Below are positions 25,883 through 53,961 of a DNA stretch of 64,000 nucleotides, piece by piece. Under the pieces are notes generated by a model. The model ran no database searches. It had not been told where the DNA came from and saw only the letters and a list, made by a program, of their open reading frames with translations. Position numbers and translations under genes: made by a program. The DNA comes from Ignavibacteriales bacterium (GTDB taxonomy: Bacteria; Bacteroidota; Ignavibacteria; UBA10030; SZUA-254). Location of the stretch: NCBI GenBank assembly GCA_016214905.1, contig JACRMQ010000006.1:664510-728509 (forward strand). The letters are read 5' to 3'. How positions within the stretch are numbered: the stretch's first letter is position 1; each line of letters opens with the position of its first letter.

Positions 25883-27053
25883 GTAAATAGTATATAATAG
25901 CTGTTTTAATTATTTGAATTATGTCGCGGATATCATCGTCAGTGTAATTTTCGCTAATAGTCCATTTATAAGCATTTTGGCAATATGAGTATGCCGTAGG
26001 ACATACAAATCTTGATACAGCGCTTTGGAGACCAAGTATTTTGGCACAACTTTTAGGTAGGTAGTAATAGCGTGCCATCTCAAGATCACTCAAACCTAGG
26101 TACTTGATTGTTCTAACGATTTGGATGGGATTGCAAAAAACTTTGGGTGATAATCTAAAGTGATACATCCAGGCAACATTCTGTCCGCCATTTGGTGATT
26201 TTGGAAGATATAGTTGAGGAATGTCTCGCAGACCTTCATCAAGATGTTGAACGATTTTAAGGCGTCGAGACATCACAGAAGAAAGATTTTTCAGTTGAGC
26301 TAGCGCCAAAGCCATATCGAGTTTTGAGCACCTGTAGTTGTAACCAAGCAAATAGTGTGAACGCCCGAAGTTCCTTATGTATTTCCCTCCCCTGAGAATA
26401 CCCATTAGGGATATGGCGTTTGCTAGTTTTTTTGAATCTGTTAGGGCAACTGCACCTGTTTCACCAGCCCAATGCTTTTCGCTGGAGAAACTAAAGAGGC
26501 TAATATCACCAAAAGATCCGGTGAGCTTTTCTTTGTATGATGCAAATGGTGCTTGACAACAATCCTCAACTACATGAATATGTTGCTTTTTTGCAATTGC
26601 CAAGATTCTATCAATTTCACACGTGATCCCCCAGAAATGAACGGCAACAATGGCTTTTGTTCGAGATGTGATCTTCCTGGACAATATTATGGGATCAATG
26701 TTTCCATTATTTGGATCTACATCACAGAACACAGGAGTGCCACCCAATGCGATTATTGCGAAGAGAGTAGCATAGTCTGAAATGGCTGGACATATAACCT
26801 CGTCACCAGGTCCAATCCCCAGTGCAAACAATGCTGCATGACCTGCTGATGTGCAATTGCTAAGTGGGACTACATATTGTCGCCGTGTGCGCTCAATAAT
26901 TTCGGATTTAAATTCTTCCTGGATCGATTTATCTGAAAAGCCCGTCGAGAGTAGTCTACTGATCAACTTCATTGCAACTGGGATATTAACCGATCTCGGG
27001 TAATTGCCTGGTAATGGTCTGCGTTCGTCTCTAATTGGTTTCATTGTTTCCAT
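25866..27053 (-). CDS. DegT/DnrJ/EryC1/StrS-family PLP aminotransferase
   Basis: A 395-aa sugar/ketone aminotransferase-fold protein. K193 in SFSSEKHWAGETGA is the expected PLP lysine, D164 (VVEDCCQAPFAS) the pyridine-N contact. The family aminates nucleotide-linked keto-sugars or other ketones in antibiotic and surface-sugar pathways. It is first in a five-gene operon. A cassette-boundary-like palindrome ends about 28 bases upstream of its start. Confidence 0.88.
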   Translation of the reverse strand: METMKPIRDERRPLPGNYPRSVNIPVAMKLISRLLSTGFSDKSIQEEFKSEIIERTRRQYVVPLSNCTSAGHAALFALGIGPGDEVICPAISDYATLFAIIALGGTPVFCDVDPNNGNIDPIILSRKITSRTKAIVAVHFWGITCEIDRILAIAKKQHIHVVEDCCQAPFASYKEKLTGSFGDISLFSFSSEKHWAGETGAVALTDSKKLANAISLMGILRGGKYIRNFGRSHYLLGYNYRCSKLDMALALAQLKNLSSVMSRRLKIVQHLDEGLRDIPQLYLPKSPNGGQNVAWMYHFRLSPKVFCNPIQIVRTIKYLGLSDLEMARYYYLPKSCAKILGLQSAVSRFVCPTAYSYCQNAYKWTISENYTDDDIRDIIQIIKTAIIYYLHAKTR

Positions 27054-33675: not shown

Positions 33676-34848
33676 TTACTTAACATTAAAAGATTTTTCA
33701 TGCGGGCGGAGAACGTTCCATGTCTCTTGCACCTCCTTTCCCTCACCATTTATTACAGGCATACCTGTAACGTGATCTATAAATGTTGGACCGAGTTCTT
33801 TCTCAAGGATCTGAAAGACATCAAATGCTGTTTCAATTGCAGCTCGTTCCGAAGCACAAAGAAATGATCCAACCCTATTATAATAGCCTGATGAAAAATA
33901 GTTCGAACATCCACACCAATTCATGCAATAAGCTTTTAAACTGCAGGAGAGGCATTCGGTGTTTATCTCTTTATTAGGTATAATTTTACAAGCCATACGA
34001 TTAATGTCTAAACCTTCGTCGATATTCCCGATGCAATGACCGTTTCCATTGTCAGACCCAATAAGTCTTTCACATGGATAAATATTCCCGGACGGTGTGA
34101 AAGCAAATTCACCTTTTCCCATCCTGCAACGTTCCAGAGGTTGGTACCCCCCTCGTAAAATTACAATGATTTTACTGTCTATAAGACTAATGAAATGAGG
34201 GTTACCCCTACGATAATAATTTATATATCGATTGGCAATCTGATTGAAAATGGATGGGAGCAAATCAGCTTCACTCTTAGACCAGTTTGCAGAAAAATCA
34301 GGATTGAGATATATGTGTGTGAGTCCAAGTGAAGAAAAATAGTCAACAACTAATGGTAAATATTGAAACGTTTGTGGATGATAGACGGCATTGACCTGTA
34401 AGCACGGTATAATTTCATTTGCCTGCTTCACTGTATTCTCAACAAGGTTTGAACTACCTTTGCCATCAGGAAAATTCCGAAACATATCCTGCACATAAGA
34501 AGGACCGTCGCAGCTTATACCTAATCCTATATTATGTTTATTCAGAAATTCGGCAATCTCATCCGAAAATATCGTACCGTTTGACACAACATCAAGTTCA
34601 ACTCTTTCTCTATCAAAAGACGTATGATTCTCTATTATATCTGTAATGTCTTCGATTAATTCAAAGGCAAGGAGCGGTTCTCCTCCAAAATAACCGATAC
34701 GAATCTTTTCAGCAGGAGGTGTATTCTTAAATATAAAATCAACAACTTTCTCAGCTATCGGCAGAGACATTTGAGTTTCTCTTTTGCCGATGTAACAATA
34801 CTTACATCGGAGATTACATTGTTGAGTAATACATATTGTATATTTCAT
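33676..34848 (-). CDS. Radical SAM/SPASM peptide- or protein-modifying enzyme
   Basis: A 390-aa enzyme. The radical SAM motif is C11-x3-C15-x2-C18 (QQCNLRCKYCY), with GYFGGEPLL (about 53-61). The SPASM region carries CRMGKGEFAF, YPCERL and CLSCSLKAYCMNWCGC, ending in LCASERAAIE, i.e. the cysteines for two auxiliary Fe-S clusters. The family typically forms thioether or C-C crosslinks in peptides. Substrate candidates are the neighbouring 132-aa and 81-aa proteins. Confidence 0.9.
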   Translation of the reverse strand: MKYTICITQQCNLRCKYCYIGKRETQMSLPIAEKVVDFIFKNTPPAEKIRIGYFGGEPLLAFELIEDITDIIENHTSFDRERVELDVVSNGTIFSDEIAEFLNKHNIGLGISCDGPSYVQDMFRNFPDGKGSSNLVENTVKQANEIIPCLQVNAVYHPQTFQYLPLVVDYFSSLGLTHIYLNPDFSANWSKSEADLLPSIFNQIANRYINYYRRGNPHFISLIDSKIIVILRGGYQPLERCRMGKGEFAFTPSGNIYPCERLIGSDNGNGHCIGNIDEGLDINRMACKIIPNKEINTECLSCSLKAYCMNWCGCSNYFSSGYYNRVGSFLCASERAAIETAFDVFQILEKELGPTFIDHVTGMPVINGEGKEVQETWNVLRPHEKSFNVK

Positions 34849-34884: not shown

Positions 34885-35130
34885 TCAAGGAATACGTGAT
34901 GCCCCGAATAGCTTATGGGATAAACAATGAAAAAATTTATCTCTGGGTCTTGGTGGTTCAATTGTCTGACAACAATTATCTATCGCTTTATCGATAACAG
35001 GTTCCGTGATATGTGGAAATTCTTCCCTGATAATCCGTTTAATCGTGTCGCGCTCATATTTCTCAGTGCAGGAAACAAATAAACTATCAATATGTCTTTT
35101 CATTTTATTGTCTACTTCGTCCCAACCCAT
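34885..35130 (-). CDS. Small helical protein upstream of radical SAM gene
   Basis: An 81-aa protein (VDNKMKRHIDSLFVSCTEKY; RIIREEFPHITEPVIDKAID; NCCQTIEPPRPRD). No family recognised. It sits between the patatin and radical SAM genes with short gaps. It has four cysteines and a proline-rich turn; it may be a substrate, a recognition partner or a regulator of the enzyme. Confidence 0.6.
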   Translation of the reverse strand: MGWDEVDNKMKRHIDSLFVSCTEKYERDTIKRIIREEFPHITEPVIDKAIDNCCQTIEPPRPRDKFFHCLSHKLFGASRIP

Positions 35131-36150: not shown

Positions 36151-37098
36151 TTAATACACTGCAACAATTATTATTTCATAGGGTAAATTCCACGTTAAGA
36201 CCTCAGGACGCTCGACGGCATTTCTAACTCTCCATGAAACAATCGCGAGATTAAGTCGCGGAATACCAAGTACGTGCAAACGATCACCTGATTTTAAATC
36301 TTTTAGTTTTTTCTCAGGTTCTGAATCTTTAATGAAGATCATCCGACGATTCCTTACCAAGAGATCTTCATTCGTATCATAAACTGCCGCCATGAGAAGT
36401 GTCCCGTCTTCCACTTCAAATGGAGTCGCATTGGGTTCCATTATAAACTCAACATAGTTATAGCCTGCCATAGGTGTGATGATTGTTGTCGTTTTCTTCT
36501 CCGCATCGACTTTGATTTGGCATTGTTTACCTTCATAGCTTGTAAAAGCACGTTCTGCGTCTTTGGGTTCAAAGCCATCAATCGTTTTCAATGAACGGAG
36601 TAACGATATATCTCCTATCTTCGTAACAGGATGAATCTCAAATACATGGTCGGGATTTGAAGTAGTAAATTTTGAAAGTCGTTTCCCTTGGATTTGTTCC
36701 GAATGCCCACCGTGTTCACACCATATTCTCCAAGCACCGGTTAATTTAACCGGGTCGGTTGTCCCTTCATGTTGATGAACAAGATCAACAGCGTCTTTGT
36801 CATCTTTAGCATTCATGATTTCGGCAACGACAGGCAGCTTGATCTCGGGAGCTCTCCCTGCAATGTGAAGATCGCCGTCTTTCTTCGCTGAATTGGGTCT
36901 CTCGTGCGCTTTATCAATTGTGTAAGTGGCCGTGATTGTCGCCCTATTTTTATATTTCTCGATGAAATTGTTTTTAAGTGTAATAGTTGTCTGTGCAACT
37001 GTAATACTGACGACAACTATAAAGAGAAATATAAATTTCCATAGAATTTGCGGCCAAATTATTTCTAATTTATACCGAAAGGAAATGTTTATTTTCAT
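36151..37098 (-). CDS. Exported or membrane-anchored protein of unknown function
   Basis: A 315-aa protein with an N-terminal membrane or signal segment (LWKFIFLFIVVVSITVAQ), then a large soluble domain with DGDLHIAGRAPEIKLPVVAE, TGAWRIWCEHGG and HVFEIHPVTKI. No named family. It has a strong AAAGGAGAA Shine-Dalgarno and is the first gene after promoter P1, so it is the most directly controlled member of that operon. Confidence 0.65.
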   Translation of the reverse strand: MKINISFRYKLEIIWPQILWKFIFLFIVVVSITVAQTTITLKNNFIEKYKNRATITATYTIDKAHERPNSAKKDGDLHIAGRAPEIKLPVVAEIMNAKDDKDAVDLVHQHEGTTDPVKLTGAWRIWCEHGGHSEQIQGKRLSKFTTSNPDHVFEIHPVTKIGDISLLRSLKTIDGFEPKDAERAFTSYEGKQCQIKVDAEKKTTTIITPMAGYNYVEFIMEPNATPFEVEDGTLLMAAVYDTNEDLLVRNRRMIFIKDSEPEKKLKDLKSGDRLHVLGIPRLNLAIVSWRVRNAVERPEVLTWNLPYEIIIVAVY

Positions 37099-39782: not shown

Positions 39783-39810
39783 AATAAATTTTATACCTAT
39801 TTATAATAAG

Positions 39811-40245
39811 TTATTTAGTGAGCGCATTATCGGAACTGCACAAAGGCGGACACGGGAATCCATACTCTAATATCGTATTATCCGACATGTCATTACCGGC
39901 TTTATCTACCCCGACGATAACAAGCGCCGGATTTCCATCATCTTTTTTCGCAAAATAGATTCTTATTCCGATGCATCCTTCTTGTTTCAGGACTTCTTGA
40001 ATTGCATTACCTCCAAAATATTCACCGAGAACTGAACCGGTTGGAACTGATTCTCGATAATTTTTTATGAGGCGCGATGCATCGTATAAACCGATAGAAT
40101 GGTTTTCGTAACCGGTTAATTGTACTTGTTCAGTTTTTGTCCGTGCGCTTATGCTATCATCGATAATTAGAAAAGATAGCAATAATATTATTAGAATAAA
40201 AGACGGAACAAGTAGAAAATAACGTACAGCATTTTTGTTAAGCAT
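39811..40245 (-). CDS. Exported small protein, first gene of the two-component operon
   Basis: A 144-aa protein with an N-terminal membrane anchor or signal peptide (YFLLVPSFILIILLLSFLII), then a soluble domain (NHSIGLYDASRLIKNYRESV; IRIYFAKKDDGNPALVIVG). It ends in a cysteine pair (FPCPPLCSSD). No family recognised. As the first gene behind promoter P3 and 28 bases ahead of the membrane gene, it may be the periplasmic ligand-binding part of the signalling system. Confidence 0.65.
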   Translation of the reverse strand: MLNKNAVRYFLLVPSFILIILLLSFLIIDDSISARTKTEQVQLTGYENHSIGLYDASRLIKNYRESVPTGSVLGEYFGGNAIQEVLKQEGCIGIRIYFAKKDDGNPALVIVGVDKAGNDMSDNTILEYGFPCPPLCSSDNALTK

Positions 40246-40360
40246 AAAAAACCTCTCAAAAATAAAATGTGATATTGGTTGTTATTTAAAGAAGGTACAC
40301 GTAATCTCTTTTCATGGAACTTTCCCCGGCTATGTAAGCATAACAATATGAATCGCCAAT

Positions 40361-40427
40361 AATCTACTTTATTAAATATGAAATTACAATGGGGTAAAAC
40401 CCTATTTAGAGAGTAGGTCTATACCTT
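40361..40427 (-). promoter_or_regulatory. Two-component-type promoter P3, autoregulation of the sensor operon
   Basis: Minus strand: AGGTATAGACCT (40416-40427), then GGGTTTTACCCC (40392-40403), TTGTAA (40385-40390), 18 bases, TAGATT (40361-40366). The distance from the -35 hexamer to the distal palindrome is 26 bases, identical to P1 and P2. It drives the 40245-37267 operon. Confidence 0.75.
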
Positions 40428-40827
40428 TGATGGCATGGGTGTTATAACTATTAATGCTAAACAACGGAAAATATTTTGTTTTCTCATTGACAATAGTTTT
40501 ATATTTGACTAATTTTCATGGGGGAAATGATAACATTCCCTTTCAAAGATTTTATCGATCATACAAATTAAATGAGTTAAGTTTTTATTGAACAAATTTA
40601 TTAATACTGATTTTATTCTAACTTTTTGTCAACATCATAATCACAAGATCATAAATTTGTATGATCTACAGTTAAAGGCTTGAGGTAAACAATCGTTTTC
40701 ATATTTGGTCTAAAATGATTTTAAAATGAAGAAATATTTTTTTTCATTGTGATTTTCTTTTTTATCATATCTACTCTGTTCAGAATTATATAGTACAGAG
40801 AGAATTAATCTAAATATAAAATTAGAA
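40428..40827. promoter_or_regulatory. Regulatory gap upstream of the ABC exporter, with a GATCATA palindrome
   Basis: No gene. A near-perfect dyad GATCATAAATTTGTATGATC is at 40647-40666, about 160 bases before the exporter start, and a related GATCATACAAATTAAAT half-copy is near 40556. Candidate operator for the exporter operon. Confidence 0.4.
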
Positions 40828-42648
40828 ATGCTTAAAACAGATAATAATTCTAATTCGATTTCATTAATCGTCGGGCAATTTATTCGCTTGATGAAATTAA
40901 TTCAACCATTTTGGCCCCATCTATTTCGTTCAATAAAAATATCTGCCATTACTGGTATTATTGCTCTTCTTTTACCATATACATCTAAATTACTCATTGA
41001 TGAAGTCTATCCTTCCCAGAATGTAACATTGATGCATATTATTGTAATAGGGACGTTGGTAATTAGTATTTCCAACATGTTGATGGGTACTTTACGATCT
41101 TATTACACAACTTACATAAGTTCGATTATGGGAGGTACTCTAAGCTTAATGTTCTTCAATCATTTACAATATTTGCCAATTACATTTTACGAGGAACACC
41201 GTGTTGGGGAGATTACCAGTCGTTTTGGCGACGTCCGATCTTCACTAAATAGTGCTTCGCAAATTCTAAGTAATATTCTCATGAATACATGGTATTTAAC
41301 TTTAGTACCACCTGTATTATTTCTATTACAGTGGAAGTTAGCAGTTGCCTCGTTGATTTTAATACCGGTATCAGCGGTAATAACATTTTTTTCCGGCAAA
41401 GTCCTCCGGCGATTATGGAAGAAATCTGCCGAAGCCGCCGCTGAAGTTAATGCAATTCAAGTTGAAGCGCTTAGCCAGATTAGAATCTTAAAATCCATGG
41501 CAGCTGAACGTCTAATGTTTAAACGAGCTAGGGATTCGGTGAAAAGTGCACTCCATGCTCAATTCCATGCAGTTGGCACAAGCCATCTTTTTGGGATATC
41601 TACTGGATTTTTATCAATACTCAACACTGCGATTTATACTTGGTTTGGATGGACGTTAATCTTTTCTCGTCAAATGACTTTAGGAGAATACATTGCATTC
41701 TCTGGTTATATTGGGTACCTTTACGGTCCTATCTTAAATCTCGTCGGCCTTTTCAATGATGTCCAACAAACTTCGGTTAGTCTGAATCGTATGTTCGAAT
41801 ACTTAAATATTAAGCCGGAACAATCTCCTTTAACTGCATATGAAGTGAATTCAACAATTGAGAATAAAGTATATATAAAGGGAGGTGTTGAGTTTAGTCA
41901 TATTTCATTTAGCTACGAACCTCATAAACCTGTGTTGAAGGATATATCATTTACTGTATGTGCAGGAAGTGTTTTTTGCATTTTTGGCCCAAGCGGTAGC
42001 GGTAAAACAACGATTACCCGTTTACTCACCCGCTTTAATGATCCCACCGCTGGTAAAATATTGATTGATGGTATACCAATCAATGAGATTCCGCTCTATG
42101 ATTTGCGTCGCCATATCTCTGTTGTGATGCAAGAAATAGGCCTTGTTAGAGGAACTGTTTGGGATAATTTAATACTTGCGTGTGAGAATCCATCTAAAAC
42201 AGTTGTTGAAGAGGCTGTACGTATTTGTCATTTAGATAAAATGATCACCGAGATGCCTTATGGATTTGAGACACCAATCGCTGAATGGGGTGCCAGCATA
42301 TCCGGAGGTCAACGTCAACGGTTGGCAATTGCTCGAGCACTTGTTAGAAATACTCCTATCCTCATTTTGGATGAGGCAACATCCAACTTGGATGTTTTAA
42401 CAGAATTGGAGATCCTGAAGGAGCTCATCATGTATTGGCAGGGACGAACGATAGTCTTGATTACCCACCGCATCGGGTCTACAGCACTTGCAGATAAAAT
42501 CTGCGTGATGGATGCTGGACAAATTATCGGAATCGATGACCATCAGAATTTATTAAAGAACAATTCTCTTTATTATCAAATGTATAAGATTGCAACCGCA
42601 GATAGTAAGGATTGTTCACATAGCGTACGAACAAAAATCTCAATGTGA
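40828..42648 (+). CDS. ABC exporter (fused permease-ATPase), RiPP cluster
   Basis: A 606-aa half-transporter: about six TM helices in residues 1-330, then an ATPase domain with Walker A GPSGSGKTT, signature SGGQRQRLAIARAL, and LILDEATSNLD. It has no N-terminal C39 peptidase domain, so it does not itself cut a leader. Together with the HlyD adaptor 47 bases downstream it forms a type I secretion-like export unit. The most likely cargo is the modified peptide encoded at 46743-46958. Confidence 0.93.
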   Translation: MLKTDNNSNSISLIVGQFIRLMKLIQPFWPHLFRSIKISAITGIIALLLPYTSKLLIDEVYPSQNVTLMHIIVIGTLVISISNMLMGTLRSYYTTYISSIMGGTLSLMFFNHLQYLPITFYEEHRVGEITSRFGDVRSSLNSASQILSNILMNTWYLTLVPPVLFLLQWKLAVASLILIPVSAVITFFSGKVLRRLWKKSAEAAAEVNAIQVEALSQIRILKSMAAERLMFKRARDSVKSALHAQFHAVGTSHLFGISTGFLSILNTAIYTWFGWTLIFSRQMTLGEYIAFSGYIGYLYGPILNLVGLFNDVQQTSVSLNRMFEYLNIKPEQSPLTAYEVNSTIENKVYIKGGVEFSHISFSYEPHKPVLKDISFTVCAGSVFCIFGPSGSGKTTITRLLTRFNDPTAGKILIDGIPINEIPLYDLRRHISVVMQEIGLVRGTVWDNLILACENPSKTVVEEAVRICHLDKMITEMPYGFETPIAEWGASISGGQRQRLAIARALVRNTPILILDEATSNLDVLTELEILKELIMYWQGRTIVLITHRIGSTALADKICVMDAGQIIGIDDHQNLLKNNSLYYQMYKIATADSKDCSHSVRTKISM

Positions 42649-42695
42649 AATGACAATATGTTTTATATTCTAAATTCATAAAGAGACCAATTTTT

Positions 42696-43862
42696 ATGCC
42701 AGATTCTCAACAGGAAAAAATACAATTGTACGATTACCAATTACCCGATCTAGGCACAATACCTGGCACACCGATAACATTTTTACAGCATGTAATGAAA
42801 ATCGTGTTTTTTATCTTTTCTTTATCATTTTTAACAGGTTTAGTAATTGCTTTTACGATAACATTTGACACAACCATTGATGCAAATGGAATTCTTGAGC
42901 CAAAAATAGTTATCCCAGTTCGGAGCAACCAAACTGGTATCATTCAGCAAATAAATACTTCAACTGGTGCTATAGTTCAGAAAGGTCAAATCATCGCGAG
43001 ATTAGATTCACTGAGTTTCGAAAATCAACTAATAAAAATTGAATCGGAATACCAATCAAAAAAATACGATTACCAAAAAACCATACAAGTTATTGATGTT
43101 CAACGACAACAAGAGGTTGAGCTATTATTGGACGCAAAGGCTAAACTAATTAGATCGAAAGCTCAGTTTCGAAATAGTCTTCTCCAGTATGGGTTCAATG
43201 CATACGATGATTCTTTCTCTGCACATTATAAAGTCGGTACGCATACGGGAATCGATATCGCTTTATCAGATATTTCATCTGCAGAAGCGGTAATTCGATA
43301 TCATACATCCAAAATCGAAGAAATAGATCTAAACCTGTTGAATATCCAGAAAGAACTCAGTGAATTAAAACAACTTGAAAAACAAATAACAATTCTAAAT
43401 GAAGTGACACGTCAACTAACTATTTTTTCTCCAGTTTCGGGAGTTGTCTTAACTGAAAATGTTGAACGATTGAATGGATCACTTATTCGTGAAGGAGACC
43501 CCCTAATTGAAATTGGAGGCTTAGATTACTGGCGAGTGAATCTTTTTTTAAATGATCAAGAAATACATGAGATTAAAACAGGTGATTTGGTGAGCATCTC
43601 GATTAAAGCATTGCCATTTATGAAGTATGGATTTTTCTCCGGGAGAGTCGTTTCAATCGCATCCGAACCGGTAAGCGCAGAACAAACTAAATTTATTGGA
43701 TTATTTAGAGTTACGATAGATATAGATTCGTTGAGTTTGAATTCCGTAATCCGAGGCAAATTACGACGCGGTTATAATGTCGAAGGAAAAATCAAGACTG
43801 GTTCTGGACGCATCATCGATTTTATATGGAAAGAATTGAAAAATTCAAGAGCGAGTTTATAA
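42696..43862 (+). CDS. HlyD-family membrane fusion protein
   Basis: A 388-aa periplasmic adaptor: one N-terminal TM (MKIVFFIFSLSFLTGLVIAF), a lipoyl-like half (VIPVRSNQTGIIQQINTSTG; VQKGQIIARLDS), a long coiled-coil hairpin (about 110-235), the second lipoyl half (LTIFSPVSGVVLTENVERL) and a beta-barrel. It bridges an inner-membrane exporter to an outer-membrane channel. No TolC-like gene is in the window. Confidence 0.92.
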   Translation: MPDSQQEKIQLYDYQLPDLGTIPGTPITFLQHVMKIVFFIFSLSFLTGLVIAFTITFDTTIDANGILEPKIVIPVRSNQTGIIQQINTSTGAIVQKGQIIARLDSLSFENQLIKIESEYQSKKYDYQKTIQVIDVQRQQEVELLLDAKAKLIRSKAQFRNSLLQYGFNAYDDSFSAHYKVGTHTGIDIALSDISSAEAVIRYHTSKIEEIDLNLLNIQKELSELKQLEKQITILNEVTRQLTIFSPVSGVVLTENVERLNGSLIREGDPLIEIGGLDYWRVNLFLNDQEIHEIKTGDLVSISIKALPFMKYGFFSGRVVSIASEPVSAEQTKFIGLFRVTIDIDSLSLNSVIRGKLRRGYNVEGKIKTGSGRIIDFIWKELKNSRASL

Positions 43863-43981
43863 ATGCTAGGAATGAATAAGAAAATATAACTCTATTACCA
43901 TTACCCAGCTCATCTATTTTCGATTGATATGATAACTTGAGCTAATTGAAATTTAATTACATAACTTAATACAAAAGATCT

Positions 43982-44974
43982 ATGAAAACAGCAAATCAAG
44001 CTAATAATCAAATCATGGCAATAACCTATGGTGATTTAGAATGTCGAGAGAGATTTATTTTCTCTAGTTGTGTTATGTTGGAGATATTAGAGAAAGCAGA
44101 AAAATTCGCTCAATCAGACATATCTGTTTTAATAGAAGGTGAGAATGGGGTCGGAAAGGACGTTATTGCTCGCTATATCTATGCAAAGAGTAGTAGAGCG
44201 GGCAGACCGTTCATACAGGTAAATTGTGGTTCAATTCCTGAAACATTATTTGAGTCAGAATTTTTTGGATTTGAAAAGGGATCCTTCACGAACGCCCTTA
44301 GAGATCATAGAGGATATTTCGAGCGGGCAAATAATGGAACAATAGTAATAGATGAGATTAGCGAAATACCATATCATCTTCAGGTGAAACTCTTGCATGT
44401 TTTTGAAGATCGCAGTATTTATCGCGTCGGAAGTGAAAAAAGAATTCCATTGGATATTAGAATAATCGCTACAACGAATTCAAACCTTAAATCTCTTGTT
44501 CATGAGAAGAAATTCAGGCAAGATTTGTATTATCGATTAGCGAGTTGTACAATTTTCGTTCCGCCTTTGAGAGAAAGAAAAGATGATATCAAAGTACTTT
44601 CAGAACATTTTGTTAGAAAGTATTCTAATGGTACAAAATACTTAAGTTTGGGAGCATATAATAAATTACTAGACCACGGATGGCCCGGGAACATAAGAGA
44701 ACTCGATGCATGCATTCATCAGTCAATATTATTAACCAATGGAAAAGCATCCATTGATATAGATGATATAAAATTAGATAATCCTATATACAAAAATAAT
44801 CACAGAGAGCTTCAAATTATCGTTGATACATTGCAACAATTTAATGGATGTATTAATAAATCTGCAAGGTATTTGCATGTACATAGAAACACCCTTTATT
44901 ATTATATCAAGAAACATCAAATCGATATAAATAATATAAGAACCTCCCTATTATTACGCAATAATCAAAAATAA
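43982..44974 (+). CDS. Sigma-54-type AAA+ activator with altered GAFTGA loop
   Basis: A 330-aa protein lacking a receiver domain. Walker A GENGVGKD (about 52-59), the sigma-54 contact loop reads GSFTNA where the family has GAFTGA, Walker B GTIVIDEISE, and R-finger region RLASCTIFVPPLRERKDD. A Fis-type HTH closes the protein (NGCINKSARYLHVHRNTLYY). It probably controls transcription of the RiPP genes. The loop change could weaken or modify sigma-54 engagement. Confidence 0.88.
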   Translation: MKTANQANNQIMAITYGDLECRERFIFSSCVMLEILEKAEKFAQSDISVLIEGENGVGKDVIARYIYAKSSRAGRPFIQVNCGSIPETLFESEFFGFEKGSFTNALRDHRGYFERANNGTIVIDEISEIPYHLQVKLLHVFEDRSIYRVGSEKRIPLDIRIIATTNSNLKSLVHEKKFRQDLYYRLASCTIFVPPLRERKDDIKVLSEHFVRKYSNGTKYLSLGAYNKLLDHGWPGNIRELDACIHQSILLTNGKASIDIDDIKLDNPIYKNNHRELQIIVDTLQQFNGCINKSARYLHVHRNTLYYYIKKHQIDINNIRTSLLLRNNQK

Positions 44975-45182
44975 TCTCATTTGAGAATATTATTTACATC
45001 GGGATTCTATAGTCAAAACATACAAAGTAAGGATACTGTTAATAATTGTCTTATGATAATTTTATGATGTTTTTATAAAAAGAAAAAAGTATGACCAAAA
45101 CATTCTTTCATAAAAGCAGTTAAACAAGACCTATTCAGATGAATATGACAGCAATAGATCTCAGTTTACTCGAAGAAGAATT

Positions 45183-46637
45183 TTATCCTGATATCTTAGT
45201 GCCTTTAAACGCTTCAGGATTTTTTTCCATTATATAACAATATTCTCTAATGTAACTGGCAAGGGATCTCTTTTTAATTACGCAGTCTGAATGCTTACGT
45301 TCAGGAGATACCTGGTTGCCATTGAACATACTAGTAAAGCATAGATCACATATACGTCTCGCCCAGCATTTTTCGCAACGTTGTGAAGAACAGATTTTGA
45401 CATAGCGATTGATTAGCTCAGATATGTTCTGGATATTGAAACCATCATAAATATTTCCGATCACCCATGCATTCTCTAGCTTTTCACACATACAAATATC
45501 ACCATTAATTGTAATAAATATTTTTCTCATTCCAGGTATACAAATACCATTAGGATAACACGTACCACTTAAAGGAAGAAGCGGTCGATGATGAAGTCGA
45601 ATATATGAACCTGAAAAAAATTTTGTTAGAACCGTGAACATTCTTTGATCCGAAGTATTATCAGGTGGATTCCTAAAAAATGAAATATATTTTTTCTTCA
45701 ATATTACGATTTGTTTCGAATAAATCCTCGACATTTGTTTCATATTAAATCTAGAATAAAAAGTTGTATCATATTCGTTTACCAGACTAAATCTCAAGGT
45801 TCCATTTGTAAATATTTCTTCATCTGCAAAATAATTCACAATTGCAAATAAGTCGTAAGGTGGTGCCATTGTGGGAAGGAACCCCACTTTTTTCCGATAA
45901 TATATCATATCAATAGATTGAATAAGCTTGATGTTTTCAATAATTTTCTCATAGGTTGGATGCTGACCTACCGTTAATCGATATCTATCATGGATATGCT
46001 CTGGACCGTCGAGACTAATATTGATTGTAAATTTATGTTCAATCAGAAACTTAATTATTTTCTCAGTCAAAAGGCTACCATTCGTAGTGAGGTGGTAGGA
46101 TATATCCCTTGACGTTCTTGATTGAATGTATTTTACCGTTCTGCGAATCAAATTGTATACAATCAACGGCTCCCCACCATAGAAACCGACTGATATGTCG
46201 CGAGCTTGAATACTTCTCTCCAGAAAGAAATCAACTGCTTTTTTTGCAACCCGCCAGGACATGTGTATAGTGGAGTGTTTACGTTTTGATTGATAACAAT
46301 CACCATAAGCACAATATACACAGCGAAAATTACATTGTTCAGTCACATTGAGGGTCAGATATTGAAGTTTTGAACTTAAATGATCAATCATGTGATCATC
46401 GCAGATAGGATTTTGAATCTCAGATGGGGGTGGTTTTTTAGGTAAAATGCCGTAATTATTTTGCAGATCTCGAATTTTTACTAATAATTCCTCATCCACG
46501 TCATCTTCAATATGAATTGACTTATTTACCCTACTACCAATATGTTGCCAGAGTGATTGCTCCATTCTAAGAATATGATTTGTATGTACGTCATAAAGAT
46601 AAAACTTTTCAGGGGTTTTGAATTTATAGTAATTCAT
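45183..46637 (-). CDS. Radical SAM/SPASM RiPP maturase
   Basis: A 484-aa enzyme. Residues 1-70 resemble the small recognition-type N-terminal domain of peptide maturases (FYLYDVHTNHILRMEQSLWQ). The radical SAM motif is C102-x3-C106-x2-C109 (EQCNFRCVYCA), followed by VGFYGGEPLIVY. The C-terminal SPASM part holds many cysteines (GTCYPNGICIPG, GDICMCEKL, CSSQRCEKCWARRICDLC). It lies 105 bases downstream of the cysteine-alternating precursor in the same direction. The likely chemistry is thioether (sactipeptide/ranthipeptide-type) crosslinks from the core cysteines, which is inference. Confidence 0.9.
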   Translation of the reverse strand: MNYYKFKTPEKFYLYDVHTNHILRMEQSLWQHIGSRVNKSIHIEDDVDEELLVKIRDLQNNYGILPKKPPPSEIQNPICDDHMIDHLSSKLQYLTLNVTEQCNFRCVYCAYGDCYQSKRKHSTIHMSWRVAKKAVDFFLERSIQARDISVGFYGGEPLIVYNLIRRTVKYIQSRTSRDISYHLTTNGSLLTEKIIKFLIEHKFTINISLDGPEHIHDRYRLTVGQHPTYEKIIENIKLIQSIDMIYYRKKVGFLPTMAPPYDLFAIVNYFADEEIFTNGTLRFSLVNEYDTTFYSRFNMKQMSRIYSKQIVILKKKYISFFRNPPDNTSDQRMFTVLTKFFSGSYIRLHHRPLLPLSGTCYPNGICIPGMRKIFITINGDICMCEKLENAWVIGNIYDGFNIQNISELINRYVKICSSQRCEKCWARRICDLCFTSMFNGNQVSPERKHSDCVIKKRSLASYIREYCYIMEKNPEAFKGTKISG

Positions 46638-46688
46638 TTAATAGCCTATATTCATATTTAAAAATAATAGATTGATTTAAATAAAACG

Positions 46689-46722
46689 AACCCCTAATAA
46701 AGATATTCCTTAATTAGGGGTC
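46689..46722 (-). terminator. Intra-operon hairpin between precursor and maturase genes
   Basis: Minus strand ACCCCTAAT / ATTAGGGGT, a 9-bp stem, followed by TCGTTTTAT. A leaky terminator here would give more precursor than maturase mRNA, a common arrangement in RiPP operons. Confidence 0.65.
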
Positions 46723-46742
46723 GATCCTTTATTGGGCGGCTA

Positions 46743-46958
46743 TCAGTATTGTTTCAACGTTCCGCACGGAACAGTATTAACAGAAGCTTGAGAGTCATTC
46801 AAAAGTGAAGTGCTACTTTGAACTGAAGCTGCGTGACTGTTCGTGTTCGAGTTCAAGTCTGACTGGTAACAACTACAGACACAACCGCAACTGCAATTGC
46901 AAGAACAACCACCACCACCTATATCGGGACTAATGTTTCCACCGATTAATTCCACCAT
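46743..46958 (-). CDS. RiPP precursor with seven alternating cysteines
   Basis: A 71-aa peptide. Short leader MVELIGGNISPDIGGGG, then C at 18, 20, 22, 24, 26, 28 and 30 (CSCNCSCGCVCSC), then a Ser/Asn/Gln-rich tail and one more Cys at 65 (VPCGTL). It is preceded by GAAAGGAGGTGATTAAAT, almost the full anti-Shine-Dalgarno complement, so strong translation is expected. A radical SAM/SPASM enzyme follows in the same operon and an ABC exporter with HlyD adaptor is nearby. A GG cleavage site before the core is plausible (PDIGGGG). No known precursor family is recognised. Confidence 0.85.
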   Translation of the reverse strand: MVELIGGNISPDIGGGGCSCNCSCGCVCSCYQSDLNSNTNSHAASVQSSTSLLNDSQASVNTVPCGTLKQY

Positions 46959-47016
46959 ATTTAATCACCTCCTTTCAAAAAATGTTTTGAAGAATATTTT
47001 ATGTATTTAGTTACTT

Positions 47017-47030
47017 CAAATATGATGCCA
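47017..47030 (-). promoter_or_regulatory. Possible sigma-54 (-24/-12) promoter of the precursor
   Basis: Minus strand TGGCATCATATTTGA: GG and the -12 dinucleotide are 10 bases apart as required, but the -12 is GA where GC is expected. It lies about 60 bases upstream of the precursor start, in a cluster that encodes a sigma-54-type activator. Confidence 0.35.
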
Positions 47031-47206
47031 ATAGAATATCAATAAATCTTTATAATGCATTAAGAAAATAAAAAAATCTATTCTCCACTTTAAAAATAAT
47101 TTGTGCATTATTGTGCACCTTTGTTCTTTCCCCCTTGTAAGTTTTAAATAAATATAAGGGGCTCTAAAATCGTTGAAGAATTGTAGCTTATTCTCTTTAA
47201 TCTGGC

Positions 47207-47235
47207 TTGACATTCTTTAAAAATGTTTGTAATAT
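47207..47235 (+). promoter_or_regulatory. Consensus sigma-70-like promoter of the ABC-2 operon
   Basis: TTGACA (47207-47212), 17 bases, TAATAT (47230-47235), about 140 bases before the ABC ATPase start. Such a perfect -35 with 17-base spacing is unlikely by chance in an intergenic region of 418 bases. A short hairpin (AACTTC / GAAGTT) sits in the leader. Confidence 0.65.
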
Positions 47236-47376
47236 ACACTTGGTTCTCGACAGCCTTCTGGATTCAACTTCTTATATGAAGTTACTCGAGGAGAATAATC
47301 TTAATGCACTATACAATCTTCTCACATTATTATTTTAAAATTTAAATATCTTATTCAGCTATAGAAGAGTCAATCC

Positions 47377-48081
47377 ATGATTCAAGCAATTAATCTCACT
47401 AAGCAATACGAGGATGGTTTAGTTGCCCTCAACAATCTGAACCTCGATGTTCAGCCCGGGCAAATATATGCCCTACTTGGTGCTAACGGTGCCGGTAAGA
47501 CAACCACTATCAATCTTTTCTTCAACTTCATAGAACCAACAAGTGGTACTGCGATTATAAACGGCATTGACTGTACAAAGAATCCGCTCGATGCTAAGAA
47601 ACATGCTGCATATGTCTCTGAAAATGTAATGCTATACGGTAACTTCACTGCACGGCAGAACCTCGACTTTTTCACAAAGCTTGCAGGTCGGAAAGATTTG
47701 AAAAAAGAAGATTACCATTTGGTACTGAAAGAAGTCGGTTTGCCAGAGCGTGCATTTGAGCAGCGCGTAAAAACATTTTCAAAGGGTATGCGTCAAAAGC
47801 TTGGTATCGCTATTGCAATATTAAAACAAGCACCAGCTCTTCTACTCGATGAACCCACATCGGGTCTCGATCCGTTAGCTGCATCAGATTTTCTAAAACT
47901 GTTGTTGCATTTAAAAACTGAAGGCAAAGCGATGCTGATGTCAACACATGATATCTTTCGCGCCAAGGAGATTGCCGACAAGATTGGAATAATGAAGGAG
48001 GGTGTTCTTATTATTGAAAAAACAAAAAAAGATTTGGAGAATGAGGATTTAGAAGAGCTATATCTGAAATATATGGAGTAA
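47377..48081 (+). CDS. ABC transporter ATPase (ABC-2 type)
   Basis: A 234-aa ATPase: Walker A LGANGAGKTTT, Q-loop area AYVSENVMLYGN, signature FSKGMRQKLGIAIAIL, Walker B LLLDEPTSGLD. The ABC-2 drug/peptide or NosF/GldA-like class. It precedes two permeases and a NEW3 protein, separated by short gaps or overlaps, so all four form one operon. It may provide self-immunity or a second export route for the peptide. Confidence 0.93.
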   Translation: MIQAINLTKQYEDGLVALNNLNLDVQPGQIYALLGANGAGKTTTINLFFNFIEPTSGTAIINGIDCTKNPLDAKKHAAYVSENVMLYGNFTARQNLDFFTKLAGRKDLKKEDYHLVLKEVGLPERAFEQRVKTFSKGMRQKLGIAIAILKQAPALLLDEPTSGLDPLAASDFLKLLLHLKTEGKAMLMSTHDIFRAKEIADKIGIMKEGVLIIEKTKKDLENEDLEELYLKYME

Positions 48082-48131
48082 GTACAAAAATAAATTAAAA
48101 GAAAAAATAGTTCAGCATTTTTTGAGATATC

Positions 48132-49697
48132 ATGATTTGGACAATAGCTAAAAAAGAGTTCCTCGAAAAAATACTTGATTTTCGAGTAGTCATCTCGTTT
48201 ATCATTGCGATAGCACTGATTCTAGTGGCAACTATAGTTGCCAGTGGCGATTATCACGCAAAAAAGGTAGAATATGACAAGCTGCTGACGGAGAGTCAAT
48301 CTATCTTGAGTAGCATTAAAGTCTATTCACAATATAAGCCGGTTGTTTACCTTCCTCCATCTCCTCTCAGTGTCTTTAGTCGCGGAATCGATATACCGAC
48401 ACCGATAACTGTGAACATTGAAATCAACGAAGTACCTTTGTACAAACCAAGAGAAGCTGGTTTGAATCCGATGATGAGCATATTCGATTCACTTGATATT
48501 GCAACTGTTGCACGGGTTCTATTTAGCTTACTCGTAATTCTGTTAACGTTCGATTCTTTCTCGGGTGAGAAAGAACAGGGAACACTACGACTGGCACTTT
48601 CCAATCCAGTCGCACGGATGAATATACTTTACGGTAAATTCATTGGCACAATAATGATCATCTCATTTGTAGTCTTCTTAACTTACATACTGACTATTAT
48701 CATGGTCCGTGTATTTTCTGGTATACCAATTGAATCTGGTTCTTATTTACGCGTACTTCTAATGGCTATTGCCACGATTTTTTATCTAGCTCTTTTGGGA
48801 GCACTTGGTATTATTGCATCTCTCAAATTTAACCATTCATCAACATCCCTCGCAGTTTTATTGTTACTCTGGTTTTTTCTAGCTATTCTGCAACCGAATC
48901 TCAATACCTACATTGTGACAGAATTTGAAAATAAACAATGGCTGCAAAACGCACAATCCGTATTTACCGATGATAACTGCGGAGCTATGAAGGAACTGGA
49001 ACAACTCCAACAGCAGTACGGTAGTCTATTTGAGGATCCAACGAAACGCGTATACTATTCTGCACTTGGATACAGCACGGTGATTGGTTGGGGTAATATT
49101 AGAATTCGTCCCATTATCACAGACGCAACATATGATATCCTCGAATACGGGATGCAACAGATTCGTATTTATCGTAAACTCGGCAATTGTGCTGAAAAGG
49201 AGTTCGATCTTTACAAGAATCATTTTATCACCAATCTCAATAAACAACTTAAATGGAAACGAACGTTAGAACTTCTTTCTCCTGCTGCAATGTATTCGCG
49301 TACTATTGCGATTCTCTCCCAAAGTGACATTGATAATGTTGACGACTTCTTCGAGCAAGCTCGACAGTACCGAACACAATATCTTACTTATCTTGACCAA
49401 AAAGGTATATTCTCAAACAACGCTTACCTGTATTTCAGCCGTTTAAGCAAAGATCAAATCAACCGAAAGGCAACAGAACAGCGAATGGCGCTATATATGC
49501 AAAATCCGAATTTGGTTCCATATATCAATGATCAACCACCACTCGATATGAGAGATGCACCGATATTCAATGCTCAGCAATCAAACATCACAACTGATTT
49601 CTCCAAAGCAGTTGGGAGCTTTGTACCAACCCTATTTTATTTTGCTATCCTTTTCTTCATGTCTGGTAAAAGTATGAAATCTTACGATCTACGATAG
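48132..49697 (+). CDS. ABC-2 type permease 1
   Basis: A 521-aa permease with an N-terminal TM, a large external loop, the characteristic LLVILLTFDSFSGEKEQGTL and SNPVARMNILYGKFIGT segment, four further helices, a second large loop (about 260-490) and a last TM. This is the architecture of the two-loop ABC-2 permeases of Bacteroidota. Confidence 0.9.
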   Translation: MIWTIAKKEFLEKILDFRVVISFIIAIALILVATIVASGDYHAKKVEYDKLLTESQSILSSIKVYSQYKPVVYLPPSPLSVFSRGIDIPTPITVNIEINEVPLYKPREAGLNPMMSIFDSLDIATVARVLFSLLVILLTFDSFSGEKEQGTLRLALSNPVARMNILYGKFIGTIMIISFVVFLTYILTIIMVRVFSGIPIESGSYLRVLLMAIATIFYLALLGALGIIASLKFNHSSTSLAVLLLLWFFLAILQPNLNTYIVTEFENKQWLQNAQSVFTDDNCGAMKELEQLQQQYGSLFEDPTKRVYYSALGYSTVIGWGNIRIRPIITDATYDILEYGMQQIRIYRKLGNCAEKEFDLYKNHFITNLNKQLKWKRTLELLSPAAMYSRTIAILSQSDIDNVDDFFEQARQYRTQYLTYLDQKGIFSNNAYLYFSRLSKDQINRKATEQRMALYMQNPNLVPYINDQPPLDMRDAPIFNAQQSNITTDFSKAVGSFVPTLFYFAILFFMSGKSMKSYDLR

Positions 49698-49712
49698 TTA
49701 GTGAGGCGGTGA

Positions 49713-51134
49713 ATGATAACAACATTAATTCTCAACGAAATCAAACATAATCTTCTAAGTCTGCGTTTTGTGATAGGTCTTCTTTTCGTTCTAATTGTAT
49801 ACACAGGAGGAAGCTTCATTTTCTCCAAGAAGTATCTAAATGAAAAGGTGAAGGACAGCCGTAACCAATTGATATATCAATCGAATTTGGAAACCTCGCA
49901 GCAAGGTTTAGAAAAACTATACGAGGAAGGAATTTTGCTCGTGAAGTTTCAGGAACTCTCTAGTTATTTCACGTCAGGTAATGAATCTCGCTTCCCGAAA
50001 GCTTTTGTTATTGCTCCCAATGCACCCCAAGGAGCTTCAGCATCAGGTGGTATGATTGTGGGTGGTTCCGGTAAAAACTACAAAATAGAAAACTACACAG
50101 ACTTCGATCTCACTTTCATTATTGGGATCGTGTTGAGTTTCTTCGCTATCGTTCTTACCTTCGACTCCGTCTCACGTGATCGTGAAGAGGGAACACTGAA
50201 GCAACAACTTTCAAACGCAGTACCTCGTGTACAGATACTTCTTGGCAAGTTCGTTGCCATACTTGTTCTACTGCTTCTCGCTGTCTTCATCGGTTCACTT
50301 TTTAGTATCATAATCTTCCAGATTGTTATTGGTCAAAATGTGCTTATATCGTTCCCTCTTGAAACGTTATTAACTGGTGTTCTATCAACCATCTATTTAT
50401 CTATGTTCATCTTGTTAGGGTTATGGATTTCTTCGAGTGTTGCCAAGTCATCAACGAGTTTGGCATTGCTACTAGTGTCCTGGGTAATTCTTGTTATCTT
50501 AAGTCCTTATATCGGTGGTATGATCGTACAGCAGTACTACCCGGTTGAATCAAAACAAGTATATGATGAAAAATGGCACTCTCTTCTAAGCACTACATCG
50601 AGTGAAACACCACAAGAATATTATGAATGCATTCAAGGAAGAGATAATGAGGAGAATTGGAAAGTTGTCGAACGATATCTTAATCAGCGAAATAATGCAT
50701 TCGAACAATTTATTACTCAGCGATTCATGGAACTCACGAATCAAGCAATCAAAGCAGAATCGTTCAATTTGTTTTCACCCTATGGAGCATTTAAGCAATC
50801 AATGGAACGGTTTGCTAATACTGGTTTATCATACCATAAAAAATTCTTTCAGAGAGCTAGGCAGTATCGATCTCAATTGGTTCAATTTATTTATGACCAG
50901 GATAAACTTGATCAACTAAGCAGGCATCGCATTGATCTAAATCCGAAAATTAGATCAATGTCTAATAAACCAGTTGACCCAGCTATAGTACCACGATTTA
51001 TTGCCCCATCACGACATGTAAGCAGTATAGATATTGTGCAATCGTTGAAGTCTATCTGCTATTTAATAATTCTTAACATTTTTTTCTTTATTCTTGCTCT
51101 TTTCCAATTCTTGAGAATGGATGTGCGACAATGA
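49713..51134 (+). CDS. ABC-2 type permease 2
   Basis: A 473-aa paralogue of the preceding permease: FAIVLTFDSVSRDREEGTLK, QQLSNAVPRVQILLGKFVAI, the same helix order and two large loops. It forms a heterodimer with permease 1. Its stop overlaps the start of the NEW3 gene (ATGA). Confidence 0.9.
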   Translation: MITTLILNEIKHNLLSLRFVIGLLFVLIVYTGGSFIFSKKYLNEKVKDSRNQLIYQSNLETSQQGLEKLYEEGILLVKFQELSSYFTSGNESRFPKAFVIAPNAPQGASASGGMIVGGSGKNYKIENYTDFDLTFIIGIVLSFFAIVLTFDSVSRDREEGTLKQQLSNAVPRVQILLGKFVAILVLLLLAVFIGSLFSIIIFQIVIGQNVLISFPLETLLTGVLSTIYLSMFILLGLWISSSVAKSSTSLALLLVSWVILVILSPYIGGMIVQQYYPVESKQVYDEKWHSLLSTTSSETPQEYYECIQGRDNEENWKVVERYLNQRNNAFEQFITQRFMELTNQAIKAESFNLFSPYGAFKQSMERFANTGLSYHKKFFQRARQYRSQLVQFIYDQDKLDQLSRHRIDLNPKIRSMSNKPVDPAIVPRFIAPSRHVSSIDIVQSLKSICYLIILNIFFFILALFQFLRMDVRQ

Positions 51135-52702
51135 TATCTAATCACAGAAGCAATTTATATGAGAAGTCCTTGAAGACAATGAATAGTTATAAGATTACCA
51201 ATTATAACCCTACAATCTTAAAAGAAATGATCATTATGGTAAAATATATACTCCCACTATTTTTTATCCTTCTTGATATTTCCTCAAGCCAAATGTTATA
51301 TAATCCTAATGATGAGCGGTTTAAATCTTTGTATCTAGAAAAAGTACAAAGCGATTATAAAGTACAAAAAGAAGAGTTTGGCCGTCAAAAGATGCTACAC
51401 GATAAAGGTTTGATATCAGAGAAAGAATTCAACGAATCTGAAGCCCGGTTTAAAACCGCACAGATTACATATCAACAGGCGATTCTATCACTTGCGTTCG
51501 AACAGCCGCATATTACAATTGATAAAGCTGTCAAGTACCAATCAAGAGATGGCAAGAAGCGGGTACGTCTCACGCTAATAAATACTACGGGTGGATTAGT
51601 GGAAGAAAAGAGAATACAACTTGAGGATTTTGAAGGAATCAGGACTGATCAGATTTCAAATATATATGTTTCACTGATCAACGACCAACGTGCCATTATA
51701 AGTCGACCATATGAAGCAAAAGTAGCATCGATGCCGTACAACCAACCTGTAATCGTTGATTTTTTTTTACTTCAGGACGTTGATAACGTTACAGTCAAAT
51801 GTGTGTACGGTGATAAATCAGAAGAGAAAATAATATACTTGCAGAAAGATGAAAGTGCAAATAAGGTTTTATTAACTTCTGAACAATTCTCACAAGAAGC
51901 AGACCTCGGAACCCGAGCAAATTACGATTTGACGCTTGAACTTTTTTCAAGCATGGAAAATGTATACAAACTTGAGGTACTAAATCTACCCAGGCAAATT
52001 GCATTCGATTTTTTTGAAGCACAGACGAATGCACGCCTTTCACAAGTAAAGTTTTCGCAAGATATTAACGCAAGGAAACTTTCACTGGCCATTTACTTAC
52101 CTGACCGATACGATAGTACATCGCTCATCATTGATCAACCCATTAGCTTTTATGCAGCAGCGATCCCACAAGCAAAGTTAGATGGTATAGCTAATAGAGA
52201 AAAGAAGTATAGCACAAGTGAACTTGAGAAAATGAAAGTCAGCTTCGTCCGACTTGAGCTTGTTCCGCGCGGTATCGGACGAATTCAGGTGAGAGCAACA
52301 AACTTCTATCAGGAACTCAATCCTGGAGAAAATGTCCATATGAGCTTAACAATCTACAACGATGGAACCCGCCGTCTTGATAATATCAAAGTTAAAACTG
52401 AAGCTCCTTTGAACTGGATATCAATCACCAATCCCGATTTGATCTCTTCCTTGCTTCCCGGCAAAGAAGAAGAGATTTCCGTTACAATTACTCCACCTGC
52501 GGATGTTAGTATTGGTGATTATGAAGCAACAATAAGGACAGAATCATATGCAAATAACCGAAAGGTAGAATCAGATGATAAGAAGATTCGCGTTCACATT
52601 GTTTCAAGTGCAAATATTTTCGGGACTACGCTTCTAATAATTCTACTAATTGGCGTAGTCATTAGTGTTGTGATATTTGGAATAAAATTGAGCCGGAAGT
52701 AA
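51131..52702 (+). CDS. Exported NEW3-domain protein with coiled-coil, C-terminal TM
   Basis: A 523-aa protein from the coupled ATG; a later ATG at 51236 (MVKYILPLFFILLDISSSQ, signal peptide) is a likely true start. A coiled-coil (SDYKVQKEEFGRQKMLHDKG, LISEKEFNESEARF) resembles adaptor hairpins. The middle is strand-rich. The C-terminus is an NPCBM-associated NEW3 domain (NPGENVHMSLTIYNDGTRRL, DNIKVKTEAPLNWIS) and one TM helix. It is probably an extracytoplasmic partner of the ABC-2 transporter. Confidence 0.8.
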   Translation: MISNHRSNLYEKSLKTMNSYKITNYNPTILKEMIIMVKYILPLFFILLDISSSQMLYNPNDERFKSLYLEKVQSDYKVQKEEFGRQKMLHDKGLISEKEFNESEARFKTAQITYQQAILSLAFEQPHITIDKAVKYQSRDGKKRVRLTLINTTGGLVEEKRIQLEDFEGIRTDQISNIYVSLINDQRAIISRPYEAKVASMPYNQPVIVDFFLLQDVDNVTVKCVYGDKSEEKIIYLQKDESANKVLLTSEQFSQEADLGTRANYDLTLELFSSMENVYKLEVLNLPRQIAFDFFEAQTNARLSQVKFSQDINARKLSLAIYLPDRYDSTSLIIDQPISFYAAAIPQAKLDGIANREKKYSTSELEKMKVSFVRLELVPRGIGRIQVRATNFYQELNPGENVHMSLTIYNDGTRRLDNIKVKTEAPLNWISITNPDLISSLLPGKEEEISVTITPPADVSIGDYEATIRTESYANNRKVESDDKKIRVHIVSSANIFGTTLLIILLIGVVISVVIFGIKLSRK

Positions 52703-53403: not shown

Positions 53404-53961
53404 ATGAGATTGGATATGATTCAGATAATGGTTTTTGAGCGGTTAGGGTTACATCGCAGAAATGCAACGCAGGGATGCCCATGCGGTTACTTCACCGATC
53501 CTGCAAAAGAATGCACTTGTAATTCACTTCAAATCCAAAAATACATGGCAAAGATATCTGGTCCACTTCTCGATAGGATTGACCTTCACATCGATGTCCC
53601 TGCCGTGAAGTATAAAGAATTAGCAAGCAAAGATACGAGCGAATCATCACAGAAAATTCGAGAGCGAGTTGTGCAGGCACGTGAAGTCCAGATGAGACGA
53701 TTCGTGGACCGAAAAGGAATGTACTGCAATGCTGATTTGCAATCGAAGGATATGCAAAATTATTGTAAGCTCGATTCCGCAGGAGAAGAGCTGTTAAAAA
53801 TGGCGATTACTAAATTAGGATTATCCGCTCGCGCCTATGATAGAATTCTAAAAGTCGGACGCACTATCGCAGACCTTACCTCGTCGCCCGATATCAAACC
53901 GGAGCATATCAGTGAGGCGATTCAATATAGGAGTTTGGATAGAAATTTGTGGCTTACATGA
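53404..53961 (+). pseudogene. comM: 3' fragment of comM (Mg-chelatase-like ATPase)
   Basis: The C-terminal third of a ComM/YifB protein: GCPCGYFTDPAKECTCNSLQ, then IQKYMAKISGPLLDRIDLHI, then the Mg_chelatase C domain (LSARAYDRILKVGRTIADLT). Full-length ComM has about 500 residues including an AAA+ ATPase core; here the homology begins only near 53460 with no Walker motifs before it. The fragment abuts foreign-looking DNA on its left, so an insertion or deletion has removed the ATPase. ComM is a helicase of natural transformation; this copy cannot work. Confidence 0.85.

Follow-up and report, generated by a model that had tools for sequence, protein, structure and literature searches.

A candidate thioether-type RiPP locus with an alternating-cysteine precursor in an Ignavibacteriales bacterium

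The described systems closest to the locus reported here are thioether peptides matured by SPASM radical SAM enzymes, and the statements on them follow the accessible parts of the cited papers. In ruminococcin C (RumC), the bridges are Cys24-31, Cys22-35, Cys45-53, and Cys41-61, the inner ones being formed first (PMC6779426, PMC8188230), and its authors did not fully exclude that Cys22 and Cys24 are paired the other way round (PMC6779426). The N-terminal hairpin of RumC has a loop offset of 7 and acceptors four residues apart, which is twice the donor spacing (PMC6779426); in thuricin Z the donor:acceptor spacing is 1:1 (PMC8172795). Four bridges were given as the most reported for sactipeptides in the 2019 ruminococcin C paper (PMC6779426). 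The precursor of SacP23, an antibacterial bacteriocin of the CLI_3235 type, is identical to a protein carrying the CLI_3235 family annotation, and expression of the SacP23 cluster in B. subtilis gave activity against several Gram-positive bacteria (PMC10731318). In the literature searched, outside of which most subscription papers lay, we found neither a solved crosslink map for the CcpM/CLI_3235 family nor a description of alternating-cysteine SPASM precursors.

The window, which is the whole stretch of 64,000 nucleotides analysed here, contains a short gene whose translation confirmed the peptide described by an earlier sequence-only reading, namely 71 residues with seven cysteines at every second position, a GGGG, a short leader, and a Ser/Asn-rich tail (Table 1). 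Cysteines 18, 20, 22, 24, 26, 28, and 30 formed an alternating run of seven, and an eighth cysteine, Cys65, which that reading left unmentioned, was located in the tail. The bases upstream of the start, GAAAGGAGGTGATTAAAT-ATG, contained a complete Shine-Dalgarno, which had been described as nearly perfect. The seven-step alternation was not due to chance, as seven alternating cysteines never appeared when the peptide was shuffled 200,000 times. A five-step TGYNNN pattern occurred at 4 places in the 3.3-Mb genome, three of them overlapping in the precursor and one in a low-complexity stretch. Since the codons of the tract were mixed (four TGT and three TGC for cysteine, and two different Ser codons), the tract was not a DNA microsatellite. 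Searches of the precursor against NCBIfam (E up to 1) and Pfam (E up to 0.1) gave no family, and TIGR04065 was thus unmatched. In a protein search of 391 genomes of the class, its own included, four others gave matches at E 7.6e-5 to 0.0019, which were rejected by eye as matches of composition; no radical SAM gene was present beside them in loci of 2.3-3.2 kb.

Table 1. Features of the locus (positions in the window) and viral proteins with CxC-rich tracts (positions in each viral locus).
Feature	Position	Strand	Basis or remark
Precursor peptide, 71 aa and stop	46743..46958	minus	translation MVELIGGNISPDIGGGGCSCNCSCGCVCSCYQSDLNSNTNSHAASVQSSTSLLNDSQASVNTVPCGTLKQY
Short leader, residues 1-17	46908..46958	minus	sequence; GG at 6-7, GGGG at 14-17
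Alternating-cysteine segment CSCNCSCGCVCSC, residues 18-30	46869..46907	minus	sequence and shuffle test
Ser/Asn-rich tail, residues 31-71, proposed acceptor segment	46746..46868	minus	sequence; tail-span relation in related family
Shine-Dalgarno GAAAGGAGGTGAT	46964..46976	minus	sequence
Radical SAM/SPASM maturase, 484 aa	45183..46637	minus	TIGR04068, 327 bits; conserved CX3CX2C and seven SPASM-region Cys; fold
ABC exporter	40828..42648	plus	family searches; without C39 peptidase match
HlyD-type adaptor	42696..43862	plus	family searches
Sigma-54 activator, AAA+ and Fis HTH	43982..44974	plus	family searches; receiver domain not found
ABC-2 ATPase, two large permeases, NEW3-domain protein	47377..52702	plus	family searches
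Stem-loop between precursor and maturase	46687..46723	minus	folding
Sigma-54-like site TGGCATCATATTTGAA, weak and tentative	47015..47030	minus	57 bp upstream of precursor ATG
Viral CxC-tract protein	L170:4144-4863
Viral CxC-tract protein	L181:1397-1972
Viral CxC-tract protein	L183:1397-1972
Viral CxC-tract protein	L233:1730-1930
Viral CxC-tract protein	L236:3325-3747
Viral CxC-tract protein	L238:503-1030
Viral CxC-tract protein	L239:5409-5939
Viral CxC-tract protein	L241:193-1095

Family searches placed a maturase, an ABC exporter, an HlyD adaptor, and an activator around the precursor, as had been claimed. CcpM (TIGR04068) was the top of all NCBIfam families for the maturase with 327.3 bits (cut-off 500), and lower scores were obtained with RumMC (NF035951, 235.9 bits, cut-off 720), lachnocin (NF038170, 215.8 bits, cut-off 550), GG_samocin of the TIGR04149/TIGR04148 system (189 bits, cut-off 300), the PapB ranthipeptide family (NF047865, 152.6 bits, cut-off 340), and SCIFF (TIGR03974, 127.6 bits, cut-off 425). 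The maturase was under the cut-off of every curated family among the best 25 listed and was therefore assigned to none of them; its Pfam SPASM match (15.3) was also under the cut-off of 21.5. In an alignment of 32 sequences, in which the maturase shared 24-33% identity with its 31 relatives, C102, C106, and C109 of the CX3CX2C motif together with C366, C384, C421, C424, C430, C433, and C452 were invariant. In a tree of 86 rows, the maturase grouped on a long branch with maturases of Halothermothrix and Latescibacterota (SH-aLRT 93, not starred), the highest identity being 32%. The short ORFs near these two tree neighbours were different, the one at L070 containing CNCIC and the one at L071 encoding a GG peptide that has two cysteines. 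No close maturase was found among 60 relatives (best match outside its own genome E 2.8e-18), 395 genomes of the phylum (best 30% identity), or 391 genomes of the class, where the best match (34% identity, genome G676) had only a CVC-containing ORF and no alternating-cysteine ORF at its locus. Another genome, G360, belongs to the phylum of the host, and its maturase protein was identical to one from a named Chlorobiaceae MAG.

Structural comparison of the predicted maturase (pLDDT 87.8) placed CteB at ranks 1-3 in Foldseek. With 5why, the Z score was 26.8 with an rmsd of 4.1 over 401 aligned residues, and with 5wgg it was 25.8 with an rmsd of 4.2 over 420 aligned residues across positions 1-470; anSME (4k39) was tied (Z 26.2, rmsd 3.2, 337 aligned residues) but only from residue 90. 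The thioether-forming maturase CteB is thus the closest full-length solved fold to the model among the 1000 chains ranked highest by Foldseek, which were those covered by the VIA-align comparison, so that other families may also match, and a shared fold shows no function. The 420 residues on 5wgg exceed the catalytic part, and therefore some of the first 80 residues were aligned; the N-terminus (3-62), where a precursor-recognition (RRE) domain might lie, consisted of three strands and helices in the model, with a pLDDT of about 58 at 31-50. CteB is said, in the accessible part of one source, to make gamma-thioethers to Thr (PMC10352776), which would suit a ranthipeptide-type modification of the precursor, in which the sulfurs are joined to beta or gamma carbons of Asp, Asn, or Thr, so that adjacent residues form small rings that are not nested into one hairpin. 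The precursor tail, rich in Asn, Ser, and Thr, would offer such acceptors, but the top maturase families were CcpM and RumMC rather than SCIFF or PapB, and we consider a modification of this type unlikely.

The short ORFs beside related maturases were then compared. A scan of the genome collection with the maturase alignment gave at least 498 loci, of which the best 80 were named and 76 were used, the maturase ORF being defined by BLAST and a length rule (L135, L144, L146, and L148 were dropped). Short ORFs with CxC and at least three cysteines within 1.5 kb of the maturase were present on the same strand in 49 of these 76 loci, as opposed to 16 of 76 on the opposite strand, and were absent in range from 27, which supported the claim that the peptide is a RiPP precursor and the radical SAM/SPASM enzyme its maturase. 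The 49 probably include some spurious frames. The longest CxC runs at the 49 loci, which belong to the best 80 of at least 498, were 2 in 25 loci, 3 in 19, and 4 in 5. Two longer runs were missed by the cut-offs of this count. In L075 (Oscillospiraceae), an ORF with six alternating cysteines was located about 1.6 kb upstream (19.2 bits against TIGR04065, cut-off 26), and in L076 (Planctomycetota), one ORF directly upstream of the maturase contained two runs, of six and of four cysteines. The seven of the window was the longest alternating run in any precursor examined, and with runs of 2-4 and six in relatives it therefore stands at the end of a series rather than as an isolated oddity. The idea that alternating cysteines fall outside the known precursor spacings was not supported, given these runs and the crosslinked CxC pair of RumC described in the accessible part of its paper (PMC6779426). 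In another genome of the same order (G032), a 128-residue ORF with many CxC steps (L162, 3870-4256) was found downstream of tandem radical SAM genes, and it represents a second Cys-rich RiPP-like locus in this order.

A high density of CxC steps is a typical feature of metal-thiolate proteins. The precursor might accordingly be a metal-binding peptide whose thiols hold metal ions, with the radical SAM enzyme acting elsewhere or modifying the peptide in part, the more so as thioether modification of the peptide is a prediction. Such a role is very unlikely in our judgement, since same-strand CxC short ORFs recurred with the maturase family across several phyla and the precursor itself was separated from the downstream maturase by only 105 bp, both being encoded on the minus strand.

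The relation between the cysteines and the tail was analysed in CLI_3235-type precursors, of which 21 of 23 were kept under an LGK-type leader rule after near-duplicates were removed. The longer the cysteine span, the longer was the tail (rho 0.85 and 0.62 with gap rules of 8 and 6, respectively; slope about 1.7 with the former), whereas leader length showed no such increase (-0.17 and -0.31), and 19 contrasts on the maturase tree gave r 0.86 for tail against span (sign-flip p 0.003). In an earlier and looser set of 33 precursors, which mixed families and included one antisense ORF, the tail-span rho was only 0.31 (p 0.076) and the leader-span rho was -0.50; the LGK-type rule was fixed afterward. 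The tail of the window's precursor, at 41 residues, was longer than the family fit of about 28. By analogy with ruminococcin C, this scaling fits a hairpin in which each cysteine would be bonded to a tail residue, and small local rings of the ranthipeptide type would not need it.

Taken with the maturase comparison, these results suggest, as the reading we hold to be likely, a thioether-type RiPP locus in the branch of SPASM radical SAM enzymes that includes CcpM, RumMC, and CteB, with the cysteine segment and the tail zipped by nested bridges. The maturase would take hydrogen from alpha carbons of the tail and join each carbon to a cysteine sulfur, beginning at the loop with Cys30 and proceeding outward, until segment and tail formed a single zipped hairpin in which as many as seven bridges were nested (-14 Da). 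On the pattern of the N-terminal hairpin of RumC, the 2:1 rule lands on the second member of each of the candidate pairs C30-S37, C28-S41, C26-S45, C24-S49, C22-L53, C20-Q57, and C18-N61, whereas under the 1:1 spacing of thuricin Z the acceptors would be found at every second residue instead. Serines at 33, 37, 41, 45, and 49 gave a period-4 run with p 0.003 (0.015 over periods 2-5), a periodicity noticed post hoc among 15 class-period tests. In a register test on 18 precursors, the acceptors were within the tail in 80 of 100 cases for the 2:1 rule with offset 7 versus 100 of 100 for the 1:1 rule, and several registers showed low G/P/C counts, so that the test favoured neither rule. The product would then be exported, probably as an antibacterial peptide, a role suggested by analogy only. 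A bolder reading, in which one enzyme processively installs seven nested thioethers along the strictly alternating strand to give a fully zipped ladder peptide exceeding four bridges, and in which alternating-cysteine tracts are a general SPASM substrate in RiPP precursors and some viral structural-region proteins, is in our view rather doubtful.

Proteins with CxC-rich tracts were also observed in viral contigs. Of 79 viral loci, 8 were picked by eye among 12 listed as candidates in which a neighbour of a radical SAM gene encodes a protein that ends, or nearly ends, in such a tract (Table 1). Their alternating runs were 11 in L170, L181, and L183 and 3-5 in the other five, so that only three of the eight exceeded a run of five. 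Weak tail-fibre matches were given by the L238 protein only, and tblastn of two of the proteins against a phage collection gave no match. Two scans of viral contigs with maturase alignments found distant radical SAM genes, by eye with little of the CLI_3235 type, and a scan with the single maturase protein found none. The three radical SAM enzymes tested, in L181, L233, and L238, scored best against PapB, all below its cut-off, which would favour the ranthipeptide-type reading.

The exporter, adaptor, and activator genes are on the plus strand, pointing toward the precursor and the maturase. The stem-loop in the 76-nt stretch between these two (-19.5 kcal/mol, z -3.3, none of 200 shuffles equally stable) is a possible partial terminator. 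The sigma-54-like site upstream of the precursor was the sole zero-mismatch match in the window to its pattern; as the pattern was picked after the site had been seen, the site is only suggestive. All matches to the pattern in the window were near chance (15 versus 10.15), the site ranked 33 against a sigma-54 consensus, and an RpoN gene was present in the genome. Sigma-70-like sites were at chance level (36 versus 36.1), and Rfam gave 0 matches in 39800-47400. The ABC-2, permease, and NEW3 genes may possibly serve self-protection.

The cluster was located in a region that splits comM. The N-terminal part of comM (C6:648280-649332) and the C-terminal part (C6:717973-718440, window 53464-53931, within 53404-53961) were separated by about 68.6 kb (G000:C6:648280-718440). 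Compared with two intact relatives, the first part covered residues 1-355 (or 1-365) of 512 and the second residues 353-512 (or 349-512), and at the left junction there was a large serine recombinase. A near-full-length comM match was found in 12 of 14 other genomes searched, G003 having none and G016 only a partial one. The region between the two parts, into which most of the window falls together with the RiPP cluster, is probably a genomic island. In 14 relatives, the ABC-2 permease at 48132-49697 and the protein at 36151-37098 had no match at 1e-30, and the exporter had only paralogs of 24-35% identity. Extra C-terminal comM fragments were observed besides a near-intact comM in four genomes (G001, G005, G018, and G019), those of G018 and G019 having almost the same start in the profile (344-345), and it may be that comM is used repeatedly as a site of integration in this clade. 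A location within an island and absence from the relatives examined might be expected of a decaying or unexpressed locus without a functional product, but the genes were open, the catalytic motifs of the maturase were intact, and the Shine-Dalgarno was complete, which makes decay extremely improbable.

Other genes were also observed on the island. A second radical SAM enzyme (33676-34848, minus) had PapB as its best NCBIfam model (187 bits, cut-off 340), with an 81-residue ORF without Pfam match directly upstream (34885-35130). At 24830-27053 (minus), a radical SAM protein adjoined a DegT/DnrJ-type aminotransferase, possibly as another biosynthetic locus. A 1396-residue protein without Pfam match at 1e-5 (10428-14618, plus) and a 1012-residue protein with a type IV coupling-protein domain (18718-21756, plus) are probably island cargo.

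Judged from sequence, alternating cysteines are not unprecedented, and the seven-step precursor represents an extreme case within a family of modified peptides that is already known, though its chemistry is unsolved. Among the loci examined, the CcpM/CLI_3235 family was widespread, and it has at least one antibacterial member according to the accessible source. As the most regular precursor seen, the peptide may be the cleanest substrate for studying how one enzyme spaces many bridges, since every bridge would show as a 2-Da loss that can be counted, and the acceptors predicted by the 1:1 rule differ from those of the 2:1 rule. Like the CcpM/CLI_3235 systems (TIGR04068, TIGR04065), the locus has a Cys-rich peptide with CxC steps encoded ahead of the maturase in the same orientation, and a maturase scoring highest with that family; unlike them, it has a maturase below the cut-off, an unmatched precursor with seven strictly alternating cysteines where the other precursor loci examined had runs of 2-6, a leader without an LGKK-type motif, and a tripartite exporter. 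With the TIGR04149/TIGR04148 system of Bacteroidota, the window's precursor shares a GG-containing leader followed by alternating cysteines, which in several relatives (L036, L141, and L145) form runs of 3-4, but the maturase of the window reached 189 bits of the 300 required and its precursor was unmatched. CteB is the closest full-length solved fold to the model, whereas the SCIFF score was far from its cut-off (127.6 versus 425). Thuricin Z/huazacin is likewise a nested-hairpin sactipeptide with evenly spaced cysteines, but these are at every fourth residue and form four bridges (PMC8172795, accessible part). Ruminococcin C shares N-terminal CxC donors, C-terminal acceptors, and a related SPASM maturase with the arrangement proposed here, but its maturase family was matched at 236 bits against a cut-off of 720, and as far as the accessible text describes it, RumC consists of two hairpins with four bridges (PMC6779426), in place of the single hairpin predicted for the window's peptide.
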